DNA of 64,000 bases from an uncultured Coriobacteriaceae bacterium. GTDB taxonomy: Bacteria; Actinomycetota; Coriobacteriia; Coriobacteriales; Atopobiaceae. This document shows positions 58,964-63,808 of this stretch, one piece after another; position 1 is the first letter of the stretch; the number at the start of each line of letters is the position of its first letter. The stretch covers positions 18,753-82,752 of the forward strand of contig CADBJR010000006.1 in assembly GCA_902795065.1 (NCBI GenBank), given 5' to 3'. The translations under genes and the position numbers were made by a program. Below the pieces are notes generated by a model. It did no database searches. It had not been told where the DNA came from and saw nothing but the letters and a program-made list of their open reading frames with translations.

Positions 58964-60268
58964 ATGGCATCTCACATGACTCCCAGCAACGACAGCACGC
59001 AGGCCCCGCGCCAGCAGGCGCGCCGCCCGCAGCAGCGTGTCGTGGTGACCACCTCCGACGAGGCCCGTCCCGTCGCGATCGAGGGGCTCCAGACCCTTCA
59101 CGGTGCGCCGGAGACCTCCAACTCCGTGCTCGGCGGGCGCGTATCCTCGCGTACCGCGCAGGCAACCGAACGTGCGCGCGAGCGCGCGGGCAGGACCCAC
59201 CGCCGCAAGCGCTCGCTCGCATTCCGGATCATCTCGGGCATCCTGGGCCTCGCGGTCCTGGGAGGCCTCGCGGCGGCATTCTACTTCTACGTGCTTCCGC
59301 GCATCTCGGGCACGATCGCAGGCGACGATCGTCCGGCCATCGAGGCGGGCGTCGACGTCGACATCATGATCCCCGACGGCTCCGGCGCCACCGAGATCGC
59401 CGAGATCCTGTACCAGAACGGCGTCATCGACGACCGCACGGTGTTCCTGCAGGCCATCAAGCGCCAGGACGCCGAGCAGCTCCTCAAGAGCGGCCCCTAC
59501 CACTTCCTCACGGGTTCCAACCCCTCCGACGTGGTGCGCCAGCTCGTCGAGGGACCCAACTCCACCGCGGGCACCTTCACCGTGCCCGAGGGCCTCACCG
59601 TCGCCAAGGTCGCCGACCTCGTCGAGACGCGCTTCGGCATCCCGCGCGACGAGTTCCTCGCGCAGGCCAAGGCATCCAACTACGTCGCCGACTACCCGTT
59701 CCTCTCCGAGGCGTCCAACGACTCGCTCGAGGGCTTCCTGTTCCCCAAGACCTACGATCTGACCGGCCAGGACATCACGGCCGACCTCATCATCCGCACG
59801 ATGCTCTCGCAGTACGCCGCCGAGGTCGCGGGCATCGACTTCGACAGCGTCCGCGCCACGCTCGCCGACCGCTACGGCCACACGTTCTCGAACTACGAGA
59901 TCATCACCATGGCCTCGATCATCGAGCGCGAGACCAATACCGACGATGACCGCGCGACGGTCGCCTCGGTCCTCTACAACCGCATCGAGCTCGACATGCC
60001 GCTGCAGTCCGACGCGACGACCGAGTACATCGTCGGGCGCGAGGTCTACCAGAGCGACCTCGAGGAGGACAACCCCTACAACACCTACCTCAACTACGGC
60101 CTCACGCCGACGCCCATCTGCTCGCCCGGCCTCGCTTCGATCCAGGCCGCCTGCGATCCCGAGCATACGTCGTACCTGTTCTTCTACATGGATGGCGACT
60201 ACCACGTGTTCTCCGAGACGATCGAGGAGCACGAGGTCGCGATCGCCAACGCGCCGTCGGGAGACTAG
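58964..60268 (+). CDS. mltG: MltG endolytic transglycosylase
   Basis: A 434-residue membrane protein. An about 80-residue basic cytoplasmic tail precedes one transmembrane helix (FRIISGILGLAVLGGLAAAF), then the YceG-like/LysM-like N-domain and catalytic domain. GFLFPKTYDL, MASIIERET with catalytic E321, and NRIELDMPLQSD are diagnostic. It cuts growing glycan strands during peptidoglycan synthesis. The start at ATG 58964 lies 5 bases after ruvX; ATG 58976 is an alternative. Confidence 0.93.
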   Translation: MASHMTPSNDSTQAPRQQARRPQQRVVVTTSDEARPVAIEGLQTLHGAPETSNSVLGGRVSSRTAQATERARERAGRTHRRKRSLAFRIISGILGLAVLGGLAAAFYFYVLPRISGTIAGDDRPAIEAGVDVDIMIPDGSGATEIAEILYQNGVIDDRTVFLQAIKRQDAEQLLKSGPYHFLTGSNPSDVVRQLVEGPNSTAGTFTVPEGLTVAKVADLVETRFGIPRDEFLAQAKASNYVADYPFLSEASNDSLEGFLFPKTYDLTGQDITADLIIRTMLSQYAAEVAGIDFDSVRATLADRYGHTFSNYEIITMASIIERETNTDDDRATVASVLYNRIELDMPLQSDATTEYIVGREVYQSDLEEDNPYNTYLNYGLTPTPICSPGLASIQAACDPEHTSYLFFYMDGDYHVFSETIEEHEVAIANAPSGD

Positions 60269-60270
60269 AC

Positions 60271-60771
60271 GTGGCGCTCGTCACGGCTTGGCGCTATGTC
60301 GCACGCGTGGAGCTCGTCGACCTCGACGAGCTCGTCGCGCTCGGCATCCGATGCCTGCTGCTCGACCGCGACAACACCATCGTTCCGCGCGATACCAAGC
60401 GCGCGCCCGAATCCGTGCGCGCTTGGATCGGCCGCGCCCATGAGCTGGGCCTGACGGTCTGCTTCGTCTCGAACAACTTCCACTCCAAGCAGGTGGCGGC
60501 CAATGCGGCCGAGTTCGATGCCGGCTGCGTGGACCACGCCATGAAGCCGTTCCCGTTCGCGGTGCGCCATGCGCTCAGGAAGATGGGCGTCTCGGCGGAC
60601 GAGGCCGTGCTCATCGGCGACCAGGTCTACACTGACATCTGCGCGGGCAACCTCGCCGGCGTCCGCACCATCCTCGTGCGCCCGCAGTGCCGCCGCGAGC
60701 TCTGGTACACCTACATCTTCCGTGCGTTCGAGGCCCTGCTCCTGCGGGGCAAGACGTACGAGGGCGAGTAG
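60271..60771 (+). CDS. YqeG-family HAD-IIIA phosphatase
   Basis: A 166-residue protein. LLLDRDNTIVPRD is motif I of the YqeG/YqaB group, VCFVSNNFHSKQV motif II, MKPFPFAVRHALRKM with the Lys of motif III, and LIGDQVYTDICAGNLAG motif IV. Its physiological substrate is unknown. In many Firmicutes yqeG is next to the shikimate/aroE operon, as here. GTG start at 60271. Confidence 0.88.
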   Translation: MALVTAWRYVARVELVDLDELVALGIRCLLLDRDNTIVPRDTKRAPESVRAWIGRAHELGLTVCFVSNNFHSKQVAANAAEFDAGCVDHAMKPFPFAVRHALRKMGVSADEAVLIGDQVYTDICAGNLAGVRTILVRPQCRRELWYTYIFRAFEALLLRGKTYEGE

Positions 60772-60848: not shown

Positions 60849-61397
60849 GTGGATAACCTGGGGCACAACGTCGTCGTCCATGATGGCTGCGACCACATCT
60901 TCTTCGTCGGCTTCCTGGGGGCCGGCAAATCCACGCTGGCTCGCAACCTCGGCGAGCTCTTCCACCGCACCTACGTCGACACCGACCACATGGTCGAGCT
61001 CTCGCTCGGCAAGCGCGTCGTGCAGATCTTCGAGGAGGACGGCGAGGATGCGTTCCGCGAAGCCGAGACACGCGCCCTCAAGCGCCTCGAGCTCCGCAAG
61101 AGCCTGCTCGTGAGCTGCGGCGGCGGCATCGTCGAGCGTCCCGAGAACTGCGCGCTCATGCACGAGATGGGCGTCGTCGTATTCCTCGACGGAGATCTCG
61201 AGGATTCGCTGCGCCAGATCCAGTGCCCCGAGCGCCGCCCCGACCTCGGCGACCGCGATAACGCCGAGCGCGTCTACGCATACCGCCGCCCGCTCTACGA
61301 GCAGACGGCCGACATCACCATCGACATCCGCAATAAGAGCTTCACCGAGGTTGCTGCCGCATCCGGCCAGCTCCTCTGGGAGAGGGGGCTGCTATGA
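60849..61397 (+). CDS. aroK: Shikimate kinase
   Basis: A 182-residue kinase that makes shikimate 3-phosphate. VGFLGAGKSTLARNLGELF is the P-loop, YVDTDHMVE the Asp that binds shikimate, LVSCGGGIV the second substrate loop and RRPLYEQTADI the lid/adenine region. GTG start at 60849 with CGAGGAGA upstream. Its stop overlaps the start of the aroB-like gene by 4 bases (ATGA). Confidence 0.92.
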   Translation: MDNLGHNVVVHDGCDHIFFVGFLGAGKSTLARNLGELFHRTYVDTDHMVELSLGKRVVQIFEEDGEDAFREAETRALKRLELRKSLLVSCGGGIVERPENCALMHEMGVVVFLDGDLEDSLRQIQCPERRPDLGDRDNAERVYAYRRPLYEQTADITIDIRNKSFTEVAAASGQLLWERGLL

Positions 61398-62644
61398 CGG
61401 AAGAGCTCAACGCCGTGCCTGCCGAGCCCGAGATGCCCGAGACGCCCGCGGCGCCCGAAACGCCTGCGCCGACCGTCGCGCCTGCAGCGCCGACCGCGCG
61501 CGGGTCTTTCTCCGCGCAGGCCAAAGCAGCATCTGCTGCATCGGCCGACAACGTCCTGGTCCGCCAGTGGGTCACCGTGCCCGGCGGTTCGATGGACGTG
61601 CGCATGGGCACGGGCCTCGCGGACCGCGCGGGCAAGGAACTCAAGGCGTCGCTCGGCAAGCCGCGCCTCGCCGTCCTCGCGAGCATCGCGGGCGCTCCCG
61701 GAGACGAGGTCGAGCGTATCCGCCGCTCGCTCACCGATGCGGGCTTCCTCGTCGAGCAGATCGCCTTCCCGGCGGGCGAAGACGCGCTCTCGCTCGATGC
61801 GGCGAAGGCCGTCCTCGACGATCTCGACCGCCTCGGTGCCACCTCCGGCGACGGCCTCGTCGTCGTGGGAGACACGGCCGCCCTCTCGCTCGCCTCGTTC
61901 GTGGCCCGGAGCTGGTGCAACGGCATCTCGCTCATGGAATACCCGCTCGACCTGCGCGCCGCCCTCGAGGGCAGCTGCTCGCCGCTCGGCTTCACCGTGG
62001 GCGCGCATCCCGAGATGTTCATGTTCCCCGCTGCCACGCGCTACGTCTACTGCGACTTCGACCTGATGGCCCCGAGCTTCGGCGGCGATGAGGAGCTCTT
62101 CGCCCGCGCGCTCATGGTGTGCGGCGCGGTGGCCGACGCCGAGAAGGCCTTCGCCAAGCTCTGGGACAGTATCGACGGCTTCCTCGACGGCACGCCCAAG
62201 ACCCGCGCCCAGGTAATCGGCGACGCGTTCCGCAGCCGCGGCCGCGTGATCTCGTCGTCCGCTGTGGTCACGCGCGATTCGCTCAACTACGGCCGCACCT
62301 TCCTGCGGGCGATGCGCCCGCTCTTCTCCGCCGACGTCCCCTCATCCACGCTCTACGCCGAGGGCATGCGCTTCGCGTCGCGCCTCGCGGCGGGCAACGG
62401 CGATTTCGCGGTCGACGACGTGCTGGCCATCGACGAGATGCTCGACGCCCTCGAGCTCGGCTACGTCGAGGACGTGCCCTTCTCGGCCGAGGAGATGGCC
62501 GCGGCGATCAAGGCGGAGTGCTTCCGCCGCACCAACAAGTTCCAGATGTACACGCCCAAGAGCTACGGGCGCATCCGCCTCATGTCCATTACCGACGAGA
62601 TGCTGGCGGAGCACACGGAGGCTTGGGTCGAATCGCGCAGCTAG
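61394..62644 (+). CDS. 3-dehydroquinate synthase homologue, catalytic residues lost
   Basis: A 416-residue protein with the DHQS fold order: an N-terminal NAD-like half (GKPRLAVLASIAG, later GLVVVGDTAALSLASFVARS) and a C-terminal half. The usual L-N-x-G-H-T-x-G-H zinc site is LNYGRTFLRAM (297-307), so both histidines are arginines at 301 and 305. G-G-K-T-x-x-N is LEGSCSP instead. It has an extra about 55-residue Ala/Pro-rich N-terminal extension. It should therefore not be an active AroB. It is translationally coupled to aroK and so may regulate or scaffold the shikimate pathway. The homology is by eye. Confidence 0.72.
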   Translation: MTEELNAVPAEPEMPETPAAPETPAPTVAPAAPTARGSFSAQAKAASAASADNVLVRQWVTVPGGSMDVRMGTGLADRAGKELKASLGKPRLAVLASIAGAPGDEVERIRRSLTDAGFLVEQIAFPAGEDALSLDAAKAVLDDLDRLGATSGDGLVVVGDTAALSLASFVARSWCNGISLMEYPLDLRAALEGSCSPLGFTVGAHPEMFMFPAATRYVYCDFDLMAPSFGGDEELFARALMVCGAVADAEKAFAKLWDSIDGFLDGTPKTRAQVIGDAFRSRGRVISSSAVVTRDSLNYGRTFLRAMRPLFSADVPSSTLYAEGMRFASRLAAGNGDFAVDDVLAIDEMLDALELGYVEDVPFSAEEMAAAIKAECFRRTNKFQMYTPKSYGRIRLMSITDEMLAEHTEAWVESRS

Positions 62645-62680: not shown

Positions 62681-63808
62681 ATGGCAGACGAGACTGCGAT
62701 CGCCGGTCGCGTGGCGCGCTTCCGCGCCCTCATGGAGGAGCGCGGCTACGACGCCGCGATCGTGCGCGACAATGCGGGGCTGCGCTGGCTCACCGGGGCG
62801 GAGCGCGTCTTCGATTTCGAGAGCGCGCACACCGCGTTCATCACGGCGGACGGGCTCTGGTTCCACACCGACTCGCGCTACTTCAACACCTTCATGGAGC
62901 GGCTCGGCACCGACAGCGCCTGGCGTTTCGACCAGGATGCCATCGATGGTCCCGCATGGGCTGCCGACAGGATCCTCGAGACCCGCTCCCGCGTGGTCGC
63001 GGTCGAGGACAGCACGACGCTCGCCTTCTTCGACGACCTCGGGACCGCCTGCGGCAAGCTCGGCATCGCGCCGCTGTTCCCCCGCATGCACGCCGATATT
63101 GCGCGCCTGCGCATCGTCAAGGACGAGGAGGAGCTCGCGCTGCTCCGCGAGGCGCAGCGGATCACCGACGAGGCGTTCACCCACATCTGCGGCTTCATCA
63201 AGCCCGGCATGAGCGAGAAGGAGATCCGCGTCGAGCTCGAGAACTACATGCTCACGCACGGCGCGGATGGCCTGTCGTTCGAGTCGATCGTCGCGGGCGG
63301 ACCCAACGGCGCCAACCCGCACGCCCAGCCGAGCGAGTACCGCGTGCAGAAGGGCGACTTCATCGTCCTCGACTACGGTGCGCTCTACCACGACTACCAC
63401 GCCGACATGACCCGCACGGTCATCCTCGGCGAGCCCACGGAGGAGCAGCGGCACGTCTACGACATCGTCCGCCTCGCCCATGAGACCTGCGCCGCCACCG
63501 CGAAGCCCGGCTGCATCGGCAAGGATATCCACAACCTCGCCGTGAAGGTCATCTCCGACAACGGCTACGGCGACTACTTCGCGCACGGCCTCGGGCACGG
63601 CGTGGGCCTCGAGATCCACGAGAAGCCCGTCTTCGGCCGCACGTACGAGGGCGAAGTCCCGGTCGGTTCGGTCATCACCGTCGAGCCGGGCATCTACCTG
63701 CCGGGCCGCTTCGGCATCCGCCTCGAGGACACTGGCGTCATGACCGAGGACGGCTACGCGCCCTTCGCGACCTCTCCACATGAGCTGGTCGTCATCGACT
63801 GCGGCTAG
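62681..63808 (+). CDS. pepP: Xaa-Pro aminopeptidase (M24B)
   Basis: A 375-residue metallopeptidase. The N-terminal creatinase-like domain precedes a pita-bread fold whose five metal ligands are visible: VLDYGALYHDYHADMTRT (two Asp), HGLGHGVGLEIH (His), TVEPGIYLPG (Glu) and RLEDTGVM (Glu). It removes N-terminal residues before proline. pepP-efp is a conserved pair in many bacteria: EF-P helps ribosomes through polyproline. Confidence 0.92.
   Translation: MADETAIAGRVARFRALMEERGYDAAIVRDNAGLRWLTGAERVFDFESAHTAFITADGLWFHTDSRYFNTFMERLGTDSAWRFDQDAIDGPAWAADRILETRSRVVAVEDSTTLAFFDDLGTACGKLGIAPLFPRMHADIARLRIVKDEEELALLREAQRITDEAFTHICGFIKPGMSEKEIRVELENYMLTHGADGLSFESIVAGGPNGANPHAQPSEYRVQKGDFIVLDYGALYHDYHADMTRTVILGEPTEEQRHVYDIVRLAHETCAATAKPGCIGKDIHNLAVKVISDNGYGDYFAHGLGHGVGLEIHEKPVFGRTYEGEVPVGSVITVEPGIYLPGRFGIRLEDTGVMTEDGYAPFATSPHELVVIDCG

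Follow-up and report, generated by a model that had tools for sequence, protein, structure and literature searches.

The aroB* locus

The window, by which is meant the whole stretch of 64,000 nucleotides analysed here, comes from an uncultured member of the Atopobiaceae and carries the following genes and gene parts around a reading frame that we call aroB*.

58964-60268, + strand: conserved upstream neighbour, which we take to be an mltG homologue (conserved synteny)
60271-60771, + strand: yqeG (HAD phosphatase), conserved neighbour upstream of aroK* and aroB* (TIGR01668 above cut-off; synteny)
60849-61397, + strand: aroK*, second shikimate-kinase-type gene with intact kinase motifs (PF01202, E 8e-37)
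61394-62644, + strand: aroB*, AroB-fold protein of 416 aa without the catalytic residues (open reading frame, profile, model and alignment)
61394-61543, + strand: N-terminal Pro/Ala-rich tail of AroB*, residues 1-50, predicted to be disordered (pLDDT < 50) and not conserved
62681-63808, + strand: pepQ-type M24 peptidase (PF00557, E 3e-69; synteny)

An earlier note on this DNA described aroB* as an intact gene that overlaps aroK and keeps a strong codon bias, and all of this holds. From its ATG start the frame runs through 416 codons without a stop and shares its first 4 bases (ATGA) with the 3' end of the shikimate-kinase gene lying upstream, and GC3 is 0.91 against 0.87-0.96 in the adjoining genes. 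The tail encoded at 61394-61543 differs in length and sequence between relatives, and GC3 is 0.76 in codons 1-55 and 0.93 in the core. In every locus whose contig extends that far, pepQ lies directly 3' of aroB*.

Ancestry and fold

The kinship of AroB* with AroB is far above chance. The AroB profile TIGR01357 matches AroB* at E 4.6e-11, and a profile of the AroB* family finds M. tuberculosis AroB at E 1.7e-24. The TIGR01357 score of 42.5 bits is nevertheless under the curated cut-off of 305, which the canonical AroB of the same genome exceeds with 330.9 bits, and the Pfam gathering scores are missed as well (PF01761 DHQ_synthase, 21.1 vs 24.2; PF24621 DHQS_C, 13.8 vs 27.6). The AlphaFold2 model of AroB*, made with 46 relatives, has a core pLDDT of ~96 and a disordered stretch at residues 1-50. 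Its best solved matches in Foldseek are dehydroquinate synthases (DHQS; E 4e-20), and DALI-like Z scores reach 37.0 (6lla) and 36.7 (3qbe) over ~350 residues at 18-20% identity; in this predicted model the DHQS fold spans residues 54-416. Given the profile E-values and a fold match at Z 37, the family assignment is sound. The naming of the protein as a 3-dehydroquinate synthase homologue in the earlier note is thereby borne out, and the profile searches did find the relation to DHQS whose absence it had listed as grounds for giving up the idea.

Loss of the active site

Residues were compared by aligning 51 AroB* orthologues with 59 canonical AroBs of the same class. In A. nidulans numbering, we take E194, H271 and H287 to be the Zn ligands, and the second motif histidine, H275, to be a substrate contact, as it is usually listed. 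All 59 canonical AroBs keep Glu194, His271, His287, Lys152, Lys161, Asn162, Lys197, Lys250, Arg264, Asn268, His275 and Lys356 together with the NAD GGG/D motif. Among the AroB* orthologues the Zn ligands have disappeared almost entirely (Glu194 in 2/51, His271 and His287 each in 0/51), as have the substrate residues Lys152 (2/51), Asn268 (5/51), His275 (3/51) and Lys161, Asn162, Lys197, Lys250 and Lys356 (0/51 each); Arg264, kept in 48/51, is the sole substrate-binding residue retained. In the NAD motif, the third Gly of GGG is present in 0/51 and the Asp (D119) in 2/51, with Ser at that position in 44/51, and the NAD-binding signature of GGGVxxD with flanking Glu and Lys is missing from the AroB* sequence. 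R130 is likewise absent from the AroB* of the window, in which the diagnostic positions are as follows.

61868-61888, + strand: residues 159-165, GDTAALS in place of the NAD-binding GGGVxxD (alignment)
61979-61990, + strand: residues 196-199, SPLG at the GGKT loop (Lys in 2/51 relatives)
62111-62113, + strand: L240 at Zn ligand Glu194 (Glu in 2/51 relatives and 59/59 canonical AroBs)
62237-62239, + strand: R282 at the substrate-carboxylate position Lys250, a newly fixed Arg (Arg in 46/51 relatives)
62273-62275, + strand: R294 at Arg264, the retained substrate-binding residue (Arg in 48/51 relatives)
62294-62308, + strand: R301 to R305, at Zn ligand His271 and at His275 (His in 0/51 and 3/51 relatives)
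62342-62344, + strand: S317 at Zn ligand His287 (His in 0/51 relatives)

The segment LNYGRTFLRAM (residues 297-307) had been taken as evidence that two metal-binding histidines became Arg. Both motif histidines are indeed Arg (R301 and R305), but only the first of them is a metal ligand on the usual assignment that we follow for H275. The reported change of the GGKT region to SPLG is real, and the extent of the loss was understated, as E194 has become L240, H287 has become S317, and K152, K161, N162, K197, K356, R130 and the NAD GGG/D119 are also gone. With the metal, NAD and most substrate residues missing, AroB* would be unable to use the known metal- and NAD-dependent mechanism of DHQS, as the note had concluded for the zinc-dependent reaction. 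DHQS requires a divalent cation (PMC7144000); in Candida Aro1, where both motif histidines are given as Zn ligands, a double His-to-Lys change in the metal site abolishes activity (PMC9074039).

Across the 51 orthologues the former Zn columns show neither a consensus nor a conserved His, Glu, Asp or Cys replacement, and the H271 column is varied (R9, T7, Q7, L7, E6 and V5 among the commonest). An alternative metal site or a rebuilt catalytic centre at this place is therefore unlikely. The residues that have become newly fixed in AroB* include Q58, D153, S165, W174, C175, R282, R382 and R395.

A true AroB and a second aroK in the same genome

A search of the genome for a second, normal aroB, proposed in the earlier note as a check, finds one on contig C1. 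It lies in a complete shikimate cluster with genes for DAHP synthase, a prephenate dehydrogenase-like protein, aroA, aroC, an aroE-aroK fusion and aroQ, those without a family match having been named from their translation. The description of the aroB* setting as the aroK operon is thus correct in that an aroK lies upstream, but this aroK* is the second SKI copy in the genome and the complete pathway is on another contig, where the kinase is the AroE-AroK fusion.

The P-loop, Asp34, Arg58, GGG and Arg136 are all intact in aroK*, which makes it a putative shikimate kinase. The gene is strongly conserved, with RPD replacing RPL in the lid, and is kept in genome G282 (L229) despite the loss of aroB, aroC, aroE and aroQ; its substrate may be other than shikimate. 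On contig C1, the AroE-AroK fusion occupies L115:10263-11558, and the kinase of relatives also lies in similar long open frames. At L115:11650-12612 of the same contig, a class II dehydroquinase (PF01220, E 1e-51) carries an N-terminal PTS EIIB domain (PF00367, E 4e-10), an unusual fusion that could couple the aromatic pathway to the state of sugar transport.

Distribution and origin

A search of 140 genomes of the same family (f1, Atopobiaceae) gave a match in 140/140. In one of them (G045) the match is the canonical AroB only, and its apparent loss of aroK* and aroB* is an artefact, the locus being a run of N. Named relatives with AroB* are Olsenella, Tractidigestivibacter, Thermophilibacter and Parafannyhessea, all Atopobiaceae, and AroB* is found in 40/40 sampled genomes of the sister family f3, which is probably Coriobacteriaceae. 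Both families keep the gene order mltG-yqeG-(aroK)-aroB*-pepQ. A third family, f2 (probably Eggerthellaceae), and the remainder of the class have a fully canonical AroB in the same place between aroK and pepQ; judged by its residues, the AroB encoded at this ancestral aroK-aroB-pepQ locus is catalytically complete. In trees, the AroB* proteins of f1 and f3 form one clade (100%) and their canonical AroBs a separate clade (100%), whose branch also contains second AroBs from three f2 genomes. This would be most simply explained if the divergent second AroB came with a new shikimate cluster and freed the locus copy.

A comparable change is seen in f2. Two genomes, G175 (L106:3932-5050, - strand) and G293 (L235:4198-5298, - strand), each combine a locus AroB that is inactivated but still open with a second AroB that is intact, and in two others (G203 and G276) the locus copy is lost. 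Read from its translation, the G293 locus AroB lacks Lys152, Lys197, Arg264, His271 and His275, and the tree sets it apart as a separate case; the G175 copy is outside the AroB* clade in one tree and sister to AroB* in the other. The inactivated locus AroBs of f2 hint at a second role of the ancestral AroB, one that outlived catalysis. We tentatively suggest, as a possibility that we would not yet bet on, that the actinobacterial AroB of the aroK-aroB-pepQ locus has a second, non-metabolic role in the cell, and that once another AroB catalyses the reaction, the active site of the locus copy becomes dispensable and the protein can be retained solely for the second role.

Purifying selection on AroB*

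AroB* is under purifying selection at the protein level, as indicated by an omega of 0.05-0.31 with a median of 0.09 (42 pairs from related species), in agreement with the statement in the earlier note that the gene is under selection. Within its own genus omega is 0.23-0.31, like that of mltG and of canonical aroB. Across genera aroB* evolves fastest at the locus, typically with 35-45% identity, aroK* and pepQ having ~65%. Lost catalytic residues, a kept fold and purifying selection together mark AroB* as a probable conserved pseudoenzyme.

Persistence without the shikimate pathway

A true AroB is found in nearly all genomes that carry AroB*, and the exceptions are informative. G282 of f3, a one-contig genome that is 99% complete, keeps aroK* and aroB*, and no canonical aroB, aroC, aroQ or aroE was detected in it. 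G030 (1.0 Mb, 94% complete) has an intact aroB* of 411 codons between yqeG and pepQ, with canonical aroB, aroC, aroQ, aroE and shikimate kinase all undetected. Four genomes of lower completeness (G008, G009, G010 and G138) likewise keep AroB*, with aroC, aroQ and aroE undetected. Further, aroB* occurs without aroK* at six Atopobiaceae loci. As AroB* persists where the true AroB, aroK* or the whole pathway is missing, its role is independent of them, and its tie to the aroK operon is historical, not functional. The idea that AroB* is obligatorily tied to AroB, to AroK or to the pathway was considered and is rejected on this phyletic pattern; aroK* may be a physical partner where both occur, but is not required.

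Proposed role of AroB*

On balance we favour the view that AroB* is a non-catalytic relative of DHQS, most likely a dimer that acts as a ligand-binding sensor or as a structural subunit, a role that we infer from the pattern of lost and kept features. The divergent second AroB, in the separate complete shikimate cluster of the Atopobiaceae and the sister family, is the copy whose active site is intact. The locus copy has been stripped of its metal and NAD residues and of most substrate residues, its fold and reading frame staying under purifying selection. AroB* would now work without chemistry, as a dimeric ligand sensor or a structural subunit. Such a course is plausible if the original AroB, besides catalysing its reaction, also served a non-catalytic purpose that survived the loss of catalysis. 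R282 and R294, which presumably sit at the AroB site for the DAHP carboxylate, together with the fixed R326, R330, R382 and R395, suggest an anion-binding cleft at the former DAHP site. However, conserved Arg may be structural, since the AroBs of the ancestral locus already have R326 and, for the most part, R330. A further concern is the fast evolution of AroB*, which a loose structural role would explain as readily as a sensor.

The newly fixed D153, S165, W174, C175, R282, R382 and R395, the retained R294 and the fully folded, very confident model could instead mean that AroB* is a new metal- and NAD-independent catalyst in a remodelled DHQS cleft. We consider this unlikely, as orthologues vary widely in the columns that once bound Zn, NAD and phosphate, unlike a catalytic centre, and within the sugar-phosphate cyclase/polyol dehydrogenase superfamily we know of no characterised enzyme that works without metal. 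The new activity envisaged in the earlier note has a small probability, and the Zn columns, with no conserved replacement, speak against a rebuilt active site there. The same note had also envisaged a regulatory or scaffolding subunit. If AroB* served the shikimate enzymes AroB or AroK in this way, the position of its gene adjoining and overlapping aroK* would make sense, and AroK-AroB fusions exist elsewhere (NF010627). This proposal is weakened by the retention of AroB* in G282 and G030 without canonical AroB, AroC, AroE and AroQ, and at the six loci without an adjacent aroK*; an obligate role of this kind is largely refuted, and we regard the proposal as a whole as improbable.

The place of aroB* inside a long housekeeping operon, its 4-base overlap with aroK* and its fast divergence might also be explained if the frame were kept mainly for operon integrity, that is, for coupling of transcription or translation into pepQ-efp. 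The low median omega, the near-invariant residues across two families and the confident fold make this explanation harder still to accept. The idea that AroB* is still an active DHQS, with its metal bound at another site, agrees with the fold and ancestry shared with AroB, but has very little chance of being right, given Zn columns without conserved His, Glu, Asp or Cys, the missing phosphate, Lys and NAD residues and the true AroB in nearly all these genomes. Finally, a decaying pseudogene would account for the loss of all catalytic residues, and its probability is negligible, as the gene is intact in essentially all genomes of the family, even a reduced one of 1.0 Mb, and omega rules this reading out.

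Comparison with known systems and significance

AroB itself (TIGR01357; PF01761 and PF24621) shares with AroB* the fold, the ancestral locus of the class and common ancestry, whereas AroB* lacks the Zn ligands and the NAD motif, has one substrate residue left and is found without the shikimate pathway. The 2-deoxy-scyllo-inosose and 2-epi-5-epi-valiolone synthases (Z 32-34) and the AroB-related putative phospholyase (TIGR04425) also have the superfamily fold; however, they are metal/NAD enzymes, and AroB* has neither set of residues. Pseudoenzymes derived from shikimate enzymes are represented by QutR, GaaX and TanX, which differ from AroB* in being fungal, in consisting of kinase, dehydratase and dehydrogenase domains rather than DHQS, and in having a known transcription-factor partner. 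For such AROM-derived repressors, the working hypothesis is that the inactive protein still binds the inducer ligand (PMC10512348). Profile searches with AroB* gave similarity to DHQS only, the QutR-type set of shikimate kinase, DHQase and shikimate dehydrogenase domains being absent. In Candida albicans Aro1 the DHQase domain is inactive, its reaction has been taken over by a second enzyme, and it is possibly kept for dimer contact (PMC9074039). There too an inactive part is retained with its catalysis outsourced, but it is a domain of a multienzyme, has a different fold and the shikimate pathway is still present.

Literature searches on bacterial AroB pseudoenzymes, Atopobiaceae DHQS and Coriobacteriia shikimate found nothing relevant, and as far as these searches reach, the bacterial AroB* family is undescribed. 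Databases would tend to label aroB* as aroB or leave it unnamed, and matches to aroK or aroB-like genes at the mltG-yqeG-aroK-aroB*-pepQ locus should not be taken as proof of a shikimate pathway. AroB* offers a clean test case for an enzyme outliving its reaction, and it points to a core function, so far undescribed, of Coriobacteriia that are common in the gut and mouth.
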